Shown here piece by piece: positions 22,443 through 30,694 of a stretch of 34,751 nucleotides of DNA. A program made the translations under genes and the position numbers. Within the stretch, counting starts at the first letter, position 1. Every line of letters begins with the position of its first letter. The notes under the pieces were generated by a model, which saw only the letters and a list, made by a program, of their open reading frames with translations, did no database searches and was not told the DNA's origin. This stretch comes from Bacillota bacterium (lineage in GTDB: Bacteria; Bacillota; Sulfobacillia; JAJZYS01): positions 1 to 34,751 of the forward strand of contig JAJZYS010000004.1 of NCBI GenBank assembly GCA_021797925.1, in the 5' to 3' direction.

Positions 22443-22838
22443 TCAGCCGGTGCGGGCGCCGGTGCGCGTCACGAGCAGCGGATGGGTCACGGGGTGCTCC
22501 AGGGTCTCGATGAACGCCTCCACCGGCAGGTTGCCCCGGCGGCCGTTGCACTCGGCACACGCCGCCACGCAGTTCTGCATGGTGGTGCGCCCGCCCTGGG
22601 ACCAGGGAAGCAGGTGGTCGATCGTACCCGCCTTGCCCCGGCAGTACGCGCACGTGAAATCGTCGCGTTCGAGGATCTTCTTGCGGACCTTGCGGTCGTG
22701 GAACGGGTTGAACCTGAGCCGTATCGCCCGGGGTCCCACCCAGCGCGCCCGCCCCAGCGCCACCTCTCGCCTGGCGACCTCCAGGGAGCACGGCGTCAGC
22801 GGCCAGCCGTTCTTGTTCTTGACTTCGATCTGAACCAA
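22443..22838 (-). CDS. Small HNH endonuclease with N-terminal PLMP-like segment (IshB-like candidate)
   Basis: TTG start with GAGGTGAT RBS; VKNKNGWPLTPCSLEVARREVALGRARWV then RKKILERDDFTCAYCRGKAGTIDHLLPWSQGGRTTMQNCVAACAECNGRRGN (HNH with CxxC...CxxC). Confidence 0.85.
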   Translation of the reverse strand: MVQIEVKNKNGWPLTPCSLEVARREVALGRARWVGPRAIRLRFNPFHDRKVRKKILERDDFTCAYCRGKAGTIDHLLPWSQGGRTTMQNCVAACAECNGRRGNLPVEAFIETLEHPVTHPLLVTRTGARTG

Positions 22839-22874: not shown

Positions 22875-23050
22875 TCACGGATGGAACCCATATGCCAGCT
22901 CAAATCCGCTCCGGGGCGGCTTCTCGCCCCGGGCGCCCGGGGGAGGGGTCCGGGCGGCGGGCGGCAAGATAGGGCGCCCGCCCGATGCGCCGTGGCGCCG
23001 CAGCGCCCATGATGGTGGGGGGAGCATGGTCGGGAAGGGGACTGGGGCAC

Positions 23051-23908
23051 GTGATTCGCATCAAGCCGGATATCTCTGACCGCAAGCTTCTGCGCCTCTT
23101 TCACCTGGGTGCCCGGATCTCCTGGACCAGCGAGGACTATCCCGAGTTCCTCCCTTCGGGCGTCGAGCCCCGGGCGGCGTTGGCGCTCGCCCATCTCATG
23201 ACGCCGGTCTACCTGGGAGAGCAGTCGGCCATGCTGGGCGCCAACCGGGCCATTGCGTACTTCTCGGAGCACCGGGACATGTCGTATGTGGTGTACCTCT
23301 CGACCTTCATGGTCGACGAGGCCCGGCACCTGGAGGCGATCACGCGGCTGTACGACGGGCTGCAGACCGATCCGCTGGCGATCCGGGATCTGCCGGACAT
23401 GCTGCGCTACCACCACCGGATGCGGGCGGGGCAGGAGATCGCCACCTGGGTCTTCGGGATCATGGTGTCGGACCTGTTCGCCAAGCACTTTTACCGGGCC
23501 CTGGCGGTCCTGTACAAGGACGCGCCGCTGGGCCACATGGCCGTCAGGGTCATCCAGGACGAGTCCCGCCACCAGGCGTTCGCGGAGCATTACCTGCGCG
23601 CGAACCTCCCCACGCTCAGCGACGACCGCTACACCGAGTTGTGGGACCTCAAAGAGGACCTCCTGCGGATCATCGGCAACATGGCCCGCAGCCTGGGGGA
23701 TGACGCCCGGGCCCTGGGCATCTCGGCGCCGGAACTGTTCGATCGGTTCGCGACCGACGTGTCGGAGCACTCCCGGCGCATGGGACTGAAGGCCCGCTGC
23801 CGTCGCTGCCCGCTCGAAGGCGGTCCGCCTCCCGACTGGTCGCAGCTTGCAGGAGAGGGTGGCTGCGCTTGCGAAGCCTTCAGTCGGACGGTGGCCAGGG
23901 AGGGGTAG
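23051..23908 (+). CDS. Ferritin-like/R2-like diiron-domain protein with C-terminal Cys-rich tail
   Basis: GTG start VIRIKPDISDRKLLRLFHLGARISW; two carboxylate-His motifs, VDEARHLEA and DESRHQAFAEHYL; all-helical; C-terminal CRRCPLEGG...GGCACE. Confidence 0.75.
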   Translation: MIRIKPDISDRKLLRLFHLGARISWTSEDYPEFLPSGVEPRAALALAHLMTPVYLGEQSAMLGANRAIAYFSEHRDMSYVVYLSTFMVDEARHLEAITRLYDGLQTDPLAIRDLPDMLRYHHRMRAGQEIATWVFGIMVSDLFAKHFYRALAVLYKDAPLGHMAVRVIQDESRHQAFAEHYLRANLPTLSDDRYTELWDLKEDLLRIIGNMARSLGDDARALGISAPELFDRFATDVSEHSRRMGLKARCRRCPLEGGPPPDWSQLAGEGGCACEAFSRTVAREG

Positions 23909-23910
23909 GG

Positions 23911-24939
23911 GTGGAGCGGACGGGCTGGCTGCGCCATGCCCACGAAGCGGTGCACTCGCGGCTGACGGTGTTTCACAAGGCCATCCTGGCGGTGTTTGCC
24001 GTCAGCCTGGCCTCGTTTGCGGCCCAGCGGGCGGTGGGGCTTCTTCCGGTCACGGCCGGCCTGCGGGCGGAAGAGGTGACGCTGGTCCTGGTGGGCGTGC
24101 TCGGGCTCAGCTGGTTTCTCACCTACGGTCTCCTGCGCCTGGCGTTTCGCCCGGTGTGGGCGGTGCGGCGCACGATGGAGCGCATCGCCCAGGGCGACTA
24201 CCGCGCCCGCATGCCCGTGGACCGGCTGGATCCCGACTTCGCCGCGCTGGCGGAGAGTTTCAACCGGACCCTGGACGAGCTGGACCGCTATCGCCGGGCC
24301 ACGCTGTTCGAGGTCCAGGTGGAGGAGGAGGTGCGGGGCCGGGGGATGGCGCGCACCCTGCACGATCAGGCCGGGCAGGCGATCACCGCGGTGATCATGC
24401 ATCTGGACCAGGTGGCGCCCCAGCTCACCGACCCCGCCCTCATCGACCGGACGCGGGAGTTGAGGGCGCTGCTGGCCGAGGGGCTCGAGGCGATCCGCGG
24501 TCTCATCTCGGACCTGTACCCCCAGATCCTCGAGGACCTGGGGCTGCTCGGGGCGCTCGAGGCGTACGCGCGCCACCAGCTGTCCGACGGCGGCTTCGAC
24601 GTGGACGTGAAGGTGGCGGGAGCCCTGAGCCAGGTCTCGCCCAAGGTGGAGGTGGGACTGTACCGCGTGGCCCAGGAGGCCATGGCGGCGGCGATCCACG
24701 AGGGCGGCGCTCGCCACGTGTCCGTGCGGGTGGAGTCGTCCGAGGGCGGCATCCGGATGGAGGTCCTGAGCGACAGCCGGCCTGCCCGCCGGGGCGACGC
24801 GGAGATCCAGGCGCACCTTGTCAGCATCGGCGACCGGGTCAAGGCCCTGAGCGGGACCCTGCTGGCGCCGCCCACCCCCCAGCACCTGGTGCTGCAGGTG
24901 CCCTGCGGTCTCGAGGCGGGATTCGACCGCCCCGCGTGA
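23911..24939 (+). CDS. NarL-class membrane sensor histidine kinase (HisKA_3) with HAMP-like segment and degenerate ATP-binding domain
   Basis: GTG start VERTGWLRHAHEAV; two TM segments with a short loop, RPVWAVRRTMERIAQGDYRARMP (HAMP-like), RTLHDQAGQAITAVIMHLDQV (H-box). N and G boxes do not match consensus. Confidence 0.82.
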   Translation: MERTGWLRHAHEAVHSRLTVFHKAILAVFAVSLASFAAQRAVGLLPVTAGLRAEEVTLVLVGVLGLSWFLTYGLLRLAFRPVWAVRRTMERIAQGDYRARMPVDRLDPDFAALAESFNRTLDELDRYRRATLFEVQVEEEVRGRGMARTLHDQAGQAITAVIMHLDQVAPQLTDPALIDRTRELRALLAEGLEAIRGLISDLYPQILEDLGLLGALEAYARHQLSDGGFDVDVKVAGALSQVSPKVEVGLYRVAQEAMAAAIHEGGARHVSVRVESSEGGIRMEVLSDSRPARRGDAEIQAHLVSIGDRVKALSGTLLAPPTPQHLVLQVPCGLEAGFDRPA

Positions 24940-24956
24940 CGGAAGGAGGGACGCAG

Positions 24957-25610
24957 TTGCCAGCCGGCAGTGAGCCCGGCGCCGTGGCGCCCATTCGGAT
25001 CCTCCTGGTCGACGACCACACGATCGTGCGCCAGGGGGTCCGCATGCTCCTGGAGAGCGAACCGGACCTCACGGTGTGCGGAGAGGCCTCGGGGGGTGAG
25101 GAGGCCATCAAGCTCACCGAGGCGCTGGATCCGGACGTGGTGGTGATGGACATCAGCATGCCCGGCATGAGCGGGATCGTGGCGACCCACCGCATCCGCC
25201 AGCGCGACCCCACGGCCCGGGTGCTGATCCTCACCATGCACGATCGCCGGGAATACGTGCTGGACATGCTGGACGCCGGCGCGTGCGGCTACATCCTCAA
25301 GGAGACCGCCGCCGAGCAGCTGGCCCAGGCCGTGCGCTCGGTGGTGCGGGGCGAGTCGGTGTTCTACCCGACGATCGCGCCCTCGGCGGACGCCCCCCGT
25401 CCCGAGGGGCGGCTGCCGCTGACGGTCCGCGAGCGGGAGGTGGTGACCCTCATCGCCCGGGGCCTGACCAACCAGCGCATCGCCGAGGCCCTGAACGTCA
25501 GCCTGAAGACGGTGCAGGCGCATCGCAGCCACATCATGGAGAAGCTGGACCTGCACGACCGGGTGGAGATCGCCAAGTACGCGCTGCGCCACGGGCTGTG
25601 CGAACTGTGA
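24957..25610 (+). CDS. NarL/FixJ (LuxR-type) response regulator
   Basis: TTG start with GGAGGG RBS; IRILLVDDHTIVRQGVRMLLESEPDL, DVVVMDISMPGMSG, LTVREREVVTLIARGLTNQRIAEALNVSLKTVQAHRSHIMEKLDL. Confidence 0.95.
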   Translation: MPAGSEPGAVAPIRILLVDDHTIVRQGVRMLLESEPDLTVCGEASGGEEAIKLTEALDPDVVVMDISMPGMSGIVATHRIRQRDPTARVLILTMHDRREYVLDMLDAGACGYILKETAAEQLAQAVRSVVRGESVFYPTIAPSADAPRPEGRLPLTVREREVVTLIARGLTNQRIAEALNVSLKTVQAHRSHIMEKLDLHDRVEIAKYALRHGLCEL

Positions 25611-26512
25611 ATGCGGGCGAAAAGCTCCGGTCCGCGCCGGGGGCCGGCGAGTCCTTCGAGGACTGGCCCGAACCCCTCGTGCTGGTGGCCGTGGACGGCC
25701 GGACCCTGTGTACGAACCGCGCCGCCCGGGCGCTCCTGGGCGCCGAGCCTGGAACCCTGGCCTGGACGGTGACGGGGAGCCAGGTGCGGGTGCGGACCGA
25801 GGCGGGGGTGCTGGTGGGACACGTGCTGCCGGTGCCGTCGGCCGGCGGGGACACGAACCTGCTCCTGCGGATCCGGCCCGAGGCCGCCGATGCGCAGCCG
25901 CGCGGCGCGGAGCGGGCCCGGCTGGCCCGCGATCTCCACGACGGTCTGAGCCAGACCCTCGCGGCCCTTGGCATCACCGCCCGGCTCATCGAGCAGCGCG
26001 CCGCCGGCGACGAGGACCTCCGGCGCCACGCCCGCCAGGTGGCGCGGCTGGCCGAGGAAGCCCGGGAGGAGATGCGCCGGGTTCTGGACGACGTCGCGTC
26101 CCGTCCCGAGGGCGACCTGGCCTCGGCCATCGCCGCGGTCGTGGAGTCGGTGCGGCTGGCGGGGGGCCCGGTCGTCGTGTGGGAGCCGCCGGGGCCGGGA
26201 GGGCCCGGGGACCCCGAGGTGGTGCGCGAGGTCGTGCTGGTCGTGCGCGAGGCCATCGCCAACGCGCTGCGGCATGCGCAGGCCCGCACCATCCGGGTGG
26301 CCCTGGGCTGGGGTGAGGGGACCGGCGAGGTGACGGTCCGTGACGACGGACGGGGCATCGCCGGCTCTCCCTGGAGTGCGCCGGGGCACAGTGGCCTGGC
26401 GTTCATGCGCGAGCGTGTGGACCGGCTCGGCGGACAGCTCGTCATCGACGAGGCCGCGGGAGGCGGAACCGTGGTGCGGCTGACCTTCCCCGCGGCCCCG
26501 CCGCCGCGGTGA
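25607..26512 (+). CDS. Soluble HisKA_3 sensor histidine kinase (PAS-like N-terminus, intact ATPase domain)
   Basis: GTG start VNAGEKLRSAPG overlapping the RR stop (GTGA). LARDLHDGLSQTLAALG, EAIANALRHAQA, VRDDGRGI, GLAFMRERVDRLGGQLVID. No TM segment. Confidence 0.92.
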   Translation: MNAGEKLRSAPGAGESFEDWPEPLVLVAVDGRTLCTNRAARALLGAEPGTLAWTVTGSQVRVRTEAGVLVGHVLPVPSAGGDTNLLLRIRPEAADAQPRGAERARLARDLHDGLSQTLAALGITARLIEQRAAGDEDLRRHARQVARLAEEAREEMRRVLDDVASRPEGDLASAIAAVVESVRLAGGPVVVWEPPGPGGPGDPEVVREVVLVVREAIANALRHAQARTIRVALGWGEGTGEVTVRDDGRGIAGSPWSAPGHSGLAFMRERVDRLGGQLVIDEAAGGGTVVRLTFPAAPPPR

Positions 26513-28417: not shown

Positions 28418-30694
28418 TCACGGGGGCGAAGTCGGCATCGAAACCGGGGCGCGCTCCGGCAGCTCCGGGGCCGCCAGGCTGAGGCGCAGCAGGGCGGAGA
28501 TGGGATAGATGACCGCCGTGGAGGCGGCGACGACCCCGGTGTCGTTGAAGAAGTACCCCACGACCACGCCGACCCCGGCTCCCACCAGCCCCATGGAGAG
28601 CATGGGATAGCGGCGGGCGATCTCCCGGGTGATCCCCGTGGAGCGGGTGAGCGCCAGCACGGCGGCGATGATCGACGCCACGAGCAAGAGGGTCCAGTAG
28701 CTCGCCTGGGTGAGGATCAGGTTGGTCTGCAGCTTGCGCAGGATGATGAGGATCCCCTGGTACGGTCCGCCGTCGACGATGAGGGCGCCTGCCCGGCCGA
28801 TGTCTGTCCTGTGGCCGGGGGCGTGCACCAGGAGGTCGTATCCCACCAGCATCAACAGCAGGGCGATGATGACCCCGGCGATGCCCAGCACCTCCCGCCC
28901 GCGGATCTTGCGTCCCGACAGCAGGAGCAGCGTCACGCCGTAGGCGGCCGTGGCGGTGATGGCGCCGCCGGCCTTGGTGCCAAGTCCCGGCAGGACGAGC
29001 ACCACCACCACGAAGACGTAGATGGCCGCCGCCACCGGCAGGAAGGAGCGGAGCCGGAAGCGGTCCATGAAGGCGGGCAGCCCGATGGCCCCCGCCCCCA
29101 CCAGCACGCCCATGTACTCGTTGCCGATGCCGTAGTAGCGGGCGCCGATCTGGGGGTCGTAACCCAGCGGCGAGCCCTTGATGAGGTGCGCGCCGGTGAG
29201 CACGTCCCCCATGAGCAGGGCGATCATGATGAGCGAGGGGATCCAGATGGGGTCCAGCGGGTGCCGGGATATGAGCAGGGTCAGCGCGGTGAGCGCCGCC
29301 GTGACCCCGACGAGGAAGAGGAACGACTCGCTGAGGTAGAGCGAGTGGATGGCCGAGAGCAAGAGGAGGGTCACGGGGAGGTACAAGACCGAGGCGATCA
29401 GGGCGGAGAGCGCTCGGGCGAACCAGAGCTTGCGTCGCCGCAGGCCGAGATAGAGCACGGCCAGCACGAACAGCAGCGCGATGTAGTACACGGTGGGGCG
29501 GAGGATGGGAACCCGCTGCGTGGAGGTGGCCGCGATGCGGGGGCCGATGATCGACAGGTAGTGCAGGGGGTGGGCGTACGCGATGGTGCGGCAGTACTGG
29601 CCGAACATGTCCATGGGGGGCGTGCGCATGCCCAGGAGGAACCTGAGGATGGTGGGGGCGATGTCGATGTCGGAGACGATGCCCCGGCGATGCGTCGTGC
29701 CCGAGGTCAGCAGCCCGTGCCGAAACGGACCGCCGGCGATGGCCAGGGGAGTCAGGGTGGCCCCCTCGTGCAGGCTCTGGCGCGAGGGCGTGGGCGAGAC
29801 CATGATGATCTCCGTGGTCCGCAGGTTGATGTGGGGGAGGATGAGACGCAGGTAGGTGTTGAAGCGGTCGATCGCGTGGGTCATGTAGCCGTGGGCGATG
29901 GCGGGTGGGGTGCCGTAGTACTGGTAGGCGTCGGCCCGGTCGGTGTCCCCGTAGTCCACCTCGACGACCGCGGCGCGCCTGAGGTACGCCAGCGTCTTTT
30001 TGGCCAGCAGGTGGTTGCGAAGCTCCACGCCGTACGGCTCCATGGGGGCGCGGCGCAACAGGTCGGACGAGACGTCCCCCATGGGGACAATCCCCTGGCT
30101 GTTCATCACCATCGCGGCGGCGCCGTGGTTGAGCACGTAGGTCGGGGGCCGGGTCGTGTAGTCGACGATGTCGCTGTTGCCCAGCGCCGCGGTCTTCAGC
30201 CCGTGGTCCTGGAGCACCTGGCCGAGGTAGCCGATGTGGATGACGTACTCCAGACCCAGGTTCTCCCGCTGAATGCCCGCGAGGTTCAGGGCCACGACCG
30301 ATCCCGGCGGCGGCCGCACCCCGGTGTTGCGCTGGTAGATGTCGGCCGCCGGCACGCCGCCCAGCCTGGTGCCGGCGTTGAACATCTCCGCGGCGGTCAG
30401 GCCCCGGAGGTGTTCGCTGGAGGCGATGGTCATGGCCGCGGCGTCGAGACCCGGCGCGCCGGCGGTGTTGGAATTCATCAGGCCGACGCTGCTCATGTGC
30501 AAAAGACGCGCCAGGGGCTCGAGGTGCGGGCGGTCCAGATTGTTCAGGGTGGTGCGGTCGACCACGAGGACCAAGACATGGCGGCCGGTTCGCGTCGAGG
30601 CGGCGAGCGCGGGATGGAGCCACACCGCGACCAGGGCCGTGACCACGAGAGCCAGCGGCCAGCTCTTTCGCAAGGCGCAAGGACCTGCCTTCAT
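28418..30694 (-). CDS. Membrane protein: extracytoplasmic alkaline-phosphatase-fold domain + C-terminal polytopic TM domain
   Basis: 758 aa; signal/anchor, VLVLVVDRTTLNNL, MNSNTAGAPGLDAAAMTIASSEHLRG, GIVSDIDIAPTILRFLLGM (AlkP-type metal motifs), then many TM helices. Confidence 0.7.
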   Translation of the reverse strand: MKAGPCALRKSWPLALVVTALVAVWLHPALAASTRTGRHVLVLVVDRTTLNNLDRPHLEPLARLLHMSSVGLMNSNTAGAPGLDAAAMTIASSEHLRGLTAAEMFNAGTRLGGVPAADIYQRNTGVRPPPGSVVALNLAGIQRENLGLEYVIHIGYLGQVLQDHGLKTAALGNSDIVDYTTRPPTYVLNHGAAAMVMNSQGIVPMGDVSSDLLRRAPMEPYGVELRNHLLAKKTLAYLRRAAVVEVDYGDTDRADAYQYYGTPPAIAHGYMTHAIDRFNTYLRLILPHINLRTTEIIMVSPTPSRQSLHEGATLTPLAIAGGPFRHGLLTSGTTHRRGIVSDIDIAPTILRFLLGMRTPPMDMFGQYCRTIAYAHPLHYLSIIGPRIAATSTQRVPILRPTVYYIALLFVLAVLYLGLRRRKLWFARALSALIASVLYLPVTLLLLSAIHSLYLSESFLFLVGVTAALTALTLLISRHPLDPIWIPSLIMIALLMGDVLTGAHLIKGSPLGYDPQIGARYYGIGNEYMGVLVGAGAIGLPAFMDRFRLRSFLPVAAAIYVFVVVVLVLPGLGTKAGGAITATAAYGVTLLLLSGRKIRGREVLGIAGVIIALLLMLVGYDLLVHAPGHRTDIGRAGALIVDGGPYQGILIILRKLQTNLILTQASYWTLLLVASIIAAVLALTRSTGITREIARRYPMLSMGLVGAGVGVVVGYFFNDTGVVAASTAVIYPISALLRLSLAAPELPERAPVSMPTSPP

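Follow-up and report, generated by a model that had tools for sequence, protein, structure and literature searches.

Organization of the locus

The window, by which we mean the whole stretch of DNA analyzed (34,751 nucleotides), carries a signaling locus of three genes that had been described, in a sequence-only reading, as two kinases sharing one NarL-type regulator; the coordinates were confirmed exactly. The first gene (23911..24939, plus strand; GTG start, 342 aa) encodes a membrane HisKA_3 sensor pseudokinase, designated K1, as judged from Pfam searches, alignments, a structural model and a fold match to DesK. K1 is composed of two transmembrane (TM) helices, a HAMP domain, a DHp domain with H151, D152 and Q156, and a CA domain from which the ATP-site residues are missing. 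The second gene (24957..25610, plus strand; 217 aa), whose TTG start is preceded by GGAAGGAGG, encodes a response regulator of the NarL/LuxR type (RR), recognized by its Pfam domains (Response_reg and GerE), its position in a phylogenetic tree and its residues, with the phosphoacceptor D65, as well as D19, T93 and K115, all intact. The third gene (25607..26512, plus strand; GTG start, 301 codons) encodes K2, a HisKA_3 kinase that is soluble and has a PAS-like region at its N terminus. The GTG start of K2 overlaps the RR stop by a few nucleotides, which suggests translational coupling. The assembly is a fragmented draft MAG of 298 contigs, in which the locus is present in a single copy.

Upstream of K1, and ending 2 nt before it, lies a gene for a diiron protein of the AurF / aldehyde decarbonylase / R2-like type (22985..23908, plus strand), which is probably part of the same operon. 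The ligand motifs for the diiron site are conserved across all homologues compared. The Cys-rich tail of the protein (23780-23905), with the pattern C-x2-C ... C-x-C, is a possible metal or redox site; the tails of the order-mates' homologues contain Cys, those of the others less. In five other genomes of two families (loci L136, L137, L138, L139 and L140), diiron homologues are encoded directly after a TM-GAF-HisKA_3 kinase and a NarL-type RR, and no such kinase was found near the other homologous diiron loci that were checked. The diiron protein is possibly a sensor or output partner of NarL-type signaling systems, and its relation to K1-RR-K2, suggested by gene position, is offered as a lead. 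Elsewhere in the window, a short ORF on the minus strand (22443-22838), adjoining an SDR gene, appears by eye to be HNH endonuclease-like (CAYC...TIDHLLPWSQGG...NCVAACAECN), and a minus-strand gene at 28418-30694 encodes a probable membrane protein of 758 aa for which Pfam gave no match at E <= 1.

K1 retains a sensor kinase architecture but not its ATP site

The membrane part of K1 had been read as two TM segments with almost no extracytoplasmic loop, followed by HAMP. The AlphaFold2 model (mean pLDDT 82.7) agrees, with TM helices at residues 20-44 and 53-78 separated by ∼8 residues. In Pfam searches, both HAMP (35.2 bits, cut-off 25) and HisKA_3 (32.1 bits, cut-off 24) passed, while HATPase_c remained below its cut-off (13.9 against 26.4 bits). 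K2 passed for both HisKA_3 (48.8 bits) and HATPase_c (53.5 bits), so that this profile comparison of the two kinases bore out the proposed difference between them. Among solved folds, DesK was the best match to the cytoplasmic part of K1, with VraS and DosS also close, and the DesK-like overall fold, CA domain included, is predicted by the model to persist; the LiaS model scored 42.7 bits against K1, under the cut-off. HisKA_3 kinases of the LiaS/VraS and DesK types, which work with NarL-type regulators, resemble K1 in having two TM helices, a short extracytoplasmic loop, HAMP and HisKA_3. They differ from it in binding ATP and in functioning as kinases on their own. Of the features expected of a competent kinase, K1 has the HisKA_3 DHp domain with H-D-x-x-x-Q and lacks the N-box, DxGxG and GLGL of HATPase_c.

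The alignments locate the H-box HDQAGQ at 24361..24378 (plus strand), with H151, D152 and Q156 and thus the HDxxxQ motif kept. At the N-box position, the invariant Asn is replaced by Ala260 (24688..24690, plus strand), and the G1 box is degenerate, with SDSR in place of D-x-G-x-G (24769..24780, plus strand). Altogether, K1 carries the replacements N260A, D287S and G289S, the last Gly of DxGxG is deleted, GLGL has become AHLV, the GT box is gone, and IGDRVKALSG stands where an MRER...GG box is expected. The substitutions noted earlier by eye (N-box Asn to Ala, DDGRG to SDSRP, MRERVDRLGG to IGDRVKALSG, with the H-box kept) were all found again in these alignments. The Asn, Asp and Gly residues of the ATP site are present in 33/33 K1 homologues of the class, and K1 alone lacks them. 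Likewise, no other row lacking both Asn and Asp was found among the ∼98 HisKA_3 kinases from many phyla in the tree set, in which row L004 is a fragment of K1 itself. On this evidence the ATP site, as had been proposed, is degraded, and K1 has very probably lost ATP binding.

The pattern of loss was scored on an alignment of 25 orthologues, by leave-one-out analysis of near-invariant columns. In the CA domain, K1 keeps 11/27 of these columns, compared to 24-28 of 27-28 in the 24 other orthologues; 7/8 are kept in HAMP and 17/29 in DHp, where 12/29 are lost, as are 3/4 in the linker. Nearly all of these columns are retained by the other orthologues. Eight CA columns were classed by us as nucleotide-site columns (N260, D287, G289, the next G, G302, the two G of the GT box and T324), and all eight are lost (8/8), versus 8/19 of the other conserved CA columns (hypergeometric p ∼0.006, post hoc). 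The joint retention of H, D and Q was not significant (p ∼0.19).

The reading frame of K1 is intact and of full length, with GC3 of 0.93-0.96 through the CA domain. A frameshift or sequencing error hiding intact K1 boxes was rejected, as the motifs are restored in no other frame. The broader proposal that the state of K1 is an artefact of assembly or sequencing draws on the draft status of the assembly and on the single copy of the locus, but the changes comprise multiple in-frame substitutions, and composition and codon bias are uniform over K1, RR and K2; we find it scarcely credible. It is also very improbable that K1 uses ATP via a non-canonical site, with K2 serving another regulator. Such a site would be in line with the predicted persistence of the CA fold. 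However, K1 lacks at once the Asn that coordinates Mg, the Asp that binds adenine, the DxGxG/GLGL glycines, the GT box and part of the ATP lid, and the K2 gene, which overlaps that of RR, has no regulator of its own at its side.

Ancestry of the K1-RR pair

A K1-type kinase is directly followed by a NarL-type RR at all homologous loci in the class (33/33), and the K1-RR pair is widespread there. In the RR tree, the regulator from the window lies in the class clade (91/92), where it groups with those of the order-mates (87/84); its branch is 0.65. The TM-HAMP-DHp tree also places K1 inside the class clade (92/93), on a branch of 2.38, the longest of its family clade. The order-mates' kinases, probably the nearest K1 orthologues according to the RR tree, have intact boxes. 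A core-domain tree put K1 among long proteobacterial branches; because the TM-HAMP-DHp and RR trees place K1-RR in the class clade, this proteobacterial placement was regarded as a long-branch attraction effect of the degenerate CA domain. Since K1 and RR are both members of the K1-RR pair conserved in the class, RR is the ancestral partner of K1, and K1 should therefore still dock it.

No closer relatives of K1 were found in 154 class genomes, 399 phylum genomes or, by pattern scan, the GTDB 220 contigs. None of the 33 homologous loci, all of which are intact, has a second HisKA_3 kinase beside K1-RR, so that both the loss of the K1 ATP site and the extra K2 are, as far as the sequences compared indicate, private to one genome, the sole family member examined. 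The conservation of the gene triplet in related genomes, which the sequence-only reading had proposed to check, was thus not observed: K2 occurs at no other K1-RR locus. An ancient conserved triplet was rejected, as no second HisKA_3 kinase was found at the 33 K1-RR loci or, in the Sulfobacillus-type family, at the K2-like loci, these being ordinary two-TM kinase-RR pairs. As for the split histidine kinase suggested earlier, its ancient form is refuted by the intact boxes of all other K1 homologues, and a lineage-specific pseudokinase with a recruited kinase is not refuted by them. Such a lineage-specific switch is mildly favored by the coincidence of ATP-site loss with the presence of K2.

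The same coincidence would also fit a relic, in which RR has been taken over by K2, and K1, once a kinase, is decaying, an open frame without a role. Within its family clade K1 evolves fastest, and the losses at conserved DHp and linker positions point in this direction as well. Nevertheless, K1 has acquired no stop or frameshift despite its large divergence, its codon bias is strong, HAMP is largely conserved, and the loss is centered on the ATP site instead of being uniform; moreover, among the signaling genes of the operon K1 still comes first, with its 3' end running into the ribosome site of RR. We consider the relic doubtful, but a rival to be taken seriously. The intact frame, the strong codon bias and the preferential loss of ATP-site positions favor, short of proof, a pseudokinase over plain decay.

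K2 is a complete kinase and not a recent duplicate of K1

K2 had been described as having all boxes and no TM segment, with a GTG start overlapping the RR stop, and this description was confirmed (H111, N219, D246 and GxG are intact). In the model of K2, the first 90 residues are beta-rich and, with modest confidence, PAS-like, and there is no TM helix; the top match in the fold search was a chimeric LOV (PAS-type) histidine kinase. No sequence closely related to K2 emerged: the best matches reach 31-38% identity over the kinase core only. In the tree, the grouping of K2 with kinases of its own genome and GAF-HisKA_3 kinases of relatives is weak (93/62). A BLASTP comparison of K1 with K2 gave 27% over 148 residues (E = 0.10), and with the separate tree positions the origin of K2 as a tandem duplicate of K1 was rejected. 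As the two are not recent duplicates, a K1-K2 heterodimer is less expected than it would be for paralogues. One order-mate (locus L138, 1186-11179, genome G006) has, within a 10-kb stretch, both a kinase-RR system linked to a diiron gene and a K1-like kinase-RR pair, and an arrangement of this kind could plausibly explain how K2-like genes came to lie beside K1-like ones.

K2 is the only complete kinase of the operon, and both K1 and K2 adjoin the one NarL-type regulator, whose control they probably share; this supports the earlier view of K2 as the kinase with the intact ATP site. In a split of the CheA3/CheA4 type, each protein is missing one half and neither can autophosphorylate by itself; K2 has an H-box together with a complete ATP site and, judged from its sequence, should autophosphorylate alone. 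These features bear on the possibility, raised in the sequence-only reading, that the CA domain of K2 phosphorylates H151 of K1 in trans and that phosphorylated K1, as an obligate phosphoacceptor, passes the phosphoryl group to RR. The geometry would be either a K1-K2 heterodimer or a K2 homodimer acting on K1. H151 and D152 are kept in K1 while ATP-site residues are preferentially lost, RR is the ancestral partner of K1, and a bipartite precedent exists in CheA3/CheA4 (PMC3591291). On the other hand, K1 and K2 are distant, K2 with its own intact His and DHp domain needs no acceptor, and the His was dispensable in the ChrS pseudokinase (PMC9491836). We regard this relay through H151 as unlikely, about as much so as the relic, and these two readings rank next after the favored one.

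Proposed roles of K1 and K2

The best explanation, which we hold tentatively, is that a K1-RR pair became ATP-dead at K1 in one lineage and that its operon partner K2 is the ATP-dependent phosphoryl donor for RR. K2 would autophosphorylate on a cytoplasmic cue and then phosphorylate RR. K1 would detect a membrane signal via its two TM helices and HAMP, and its DHp domain would gate RR, by dephosphorylating phosphorylated RR with the glutamine of HDxxxQ, by docking RR or K2, or by both; a K1-K2 heterodimer might take part in this gating. The ancestry of RR, the Gln chemistry at H+5 and the ChrS-HrrS case favor this combination of K2 as donor and K1 as modulator. Dephosphorylation by HisKA_3 kinases relies on the Gln at H+5, which places the water, and does not require the His (PMC5231405); the corresponding residue in K1 is Q156. 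By any known chemistry K2 could act as a kinase and K1 could not.

The individual parts differ in strength. From its operon position, K2 probably acts on RR, and it is likely, to almost the same degree, that K1 is still functional. If K1 works, the role of a phosphatase or docking modulator is somewhat preferred to that of a phosphoacceptor. Several observations count against the explanation as a whole: the triplet is carried by one genome only; K1, at 2.38 versus 0.65 for RR, has the longest branch in its family clade; the joint retention of H, D and Q lacks significance; and CA-truncated ChrS appeared to have lost phosphatase activity. More tentative still is a naturally fixed, operon-encoded division of labor, in which K1, devoid of ATP chemistry, would be no more than a signal-gated phosphatase or phosphoacceptor and the recruited K2 the donor, the two forming a two-input AND/NOT gate that is possibly coupled to the diiron protein.

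Comparison with known systems

The nearest precedent for K1-K2 is the ATP-dead ChrS variant with HrrS in Corynebacterium. In Corynebacterium glutamicum, ATP-dead ChrS enhanced the output of its cognate RR, strictly via HrrS, and the ChrS His was dispensable; heterodimers of native ChrS and HrrS were detected by two-hybrid analysis, and CA-truncated ChrS appeared to have lost phosphatase activity (PMC9491836). By analogy, an ATP-dead kinase such as K1 may be without phosphatase activity too. Like K1, ChrS_CA-fs is an ATP-dead membrane sensor accompanied by a second, intact kinase, the likeness to K2 being one of sequence anatomy and operon position. However, ChrS_CA-fs arose by a laboratory frameshift, while the state of K1 is natural, and HrrS is a ChrS paralogue with its own regulator, while K2 is soluble and encoded in the K1-RR operon. 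The regulator of HrrS is encoded elsewhere.

Other systems share single features with the locus. In CheA3-CheA4 of Rhodobacter sphaeroides, kinase functions are likewise split over two proteins serving one regulator, but the architecture is that of CheA, CheA4 being without the His domain and CheA3 without the catalytic domain, whereas K2 is complete by itself (PMC3591291). Hik36-Hik43-Rre6 of Synechocystis comprises two genes for kinases that have been described as forming a single split kinase, acting on one regulator (PMC7656254). It comes from a different bacterial group, and is likened to K1-K2 by this description. The Rv0600c/Rv0601c kinase of Mycobacterium tuberculosis is divided into an ATP-binding protein and a His protein, each of them partial, while K1 is a degenerate membrane protein and K2 is complete and soluble. 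These two mycobacterial kinases are mentioned as cooperating with one regulator, TcrA (PMC9274095). DivL and RetS, both of which turn up in the K1 fold search, are kinase-like modulators of another kinase and do not phosphorylate a regulator, but they belong to another kinase subfamily and to other pathways than K1. DivL acts on CckA, and RetS on GacS, both of them hybrid kinases.

Implications

Sensor kinases usually hold kinase and phosphatase functions in one protein. If the proposed roles are correct, the locus, with a sensor that would have lost only its ATP site, known intact relatives and a clear ancestry of RR, would offer a clean system for asking which of its functions a sensor histidine kinase retains once another protein has taken over the kinase activity. 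The K1 case also cautions against naming kinase genes from domain matches alone. K1 would be a natural pseudokinase sensor, earlier examples being mainly laboratory-evolved or unrelated, and the state reached by ChrS in the laboratory would then also be an evolutionary end-point.
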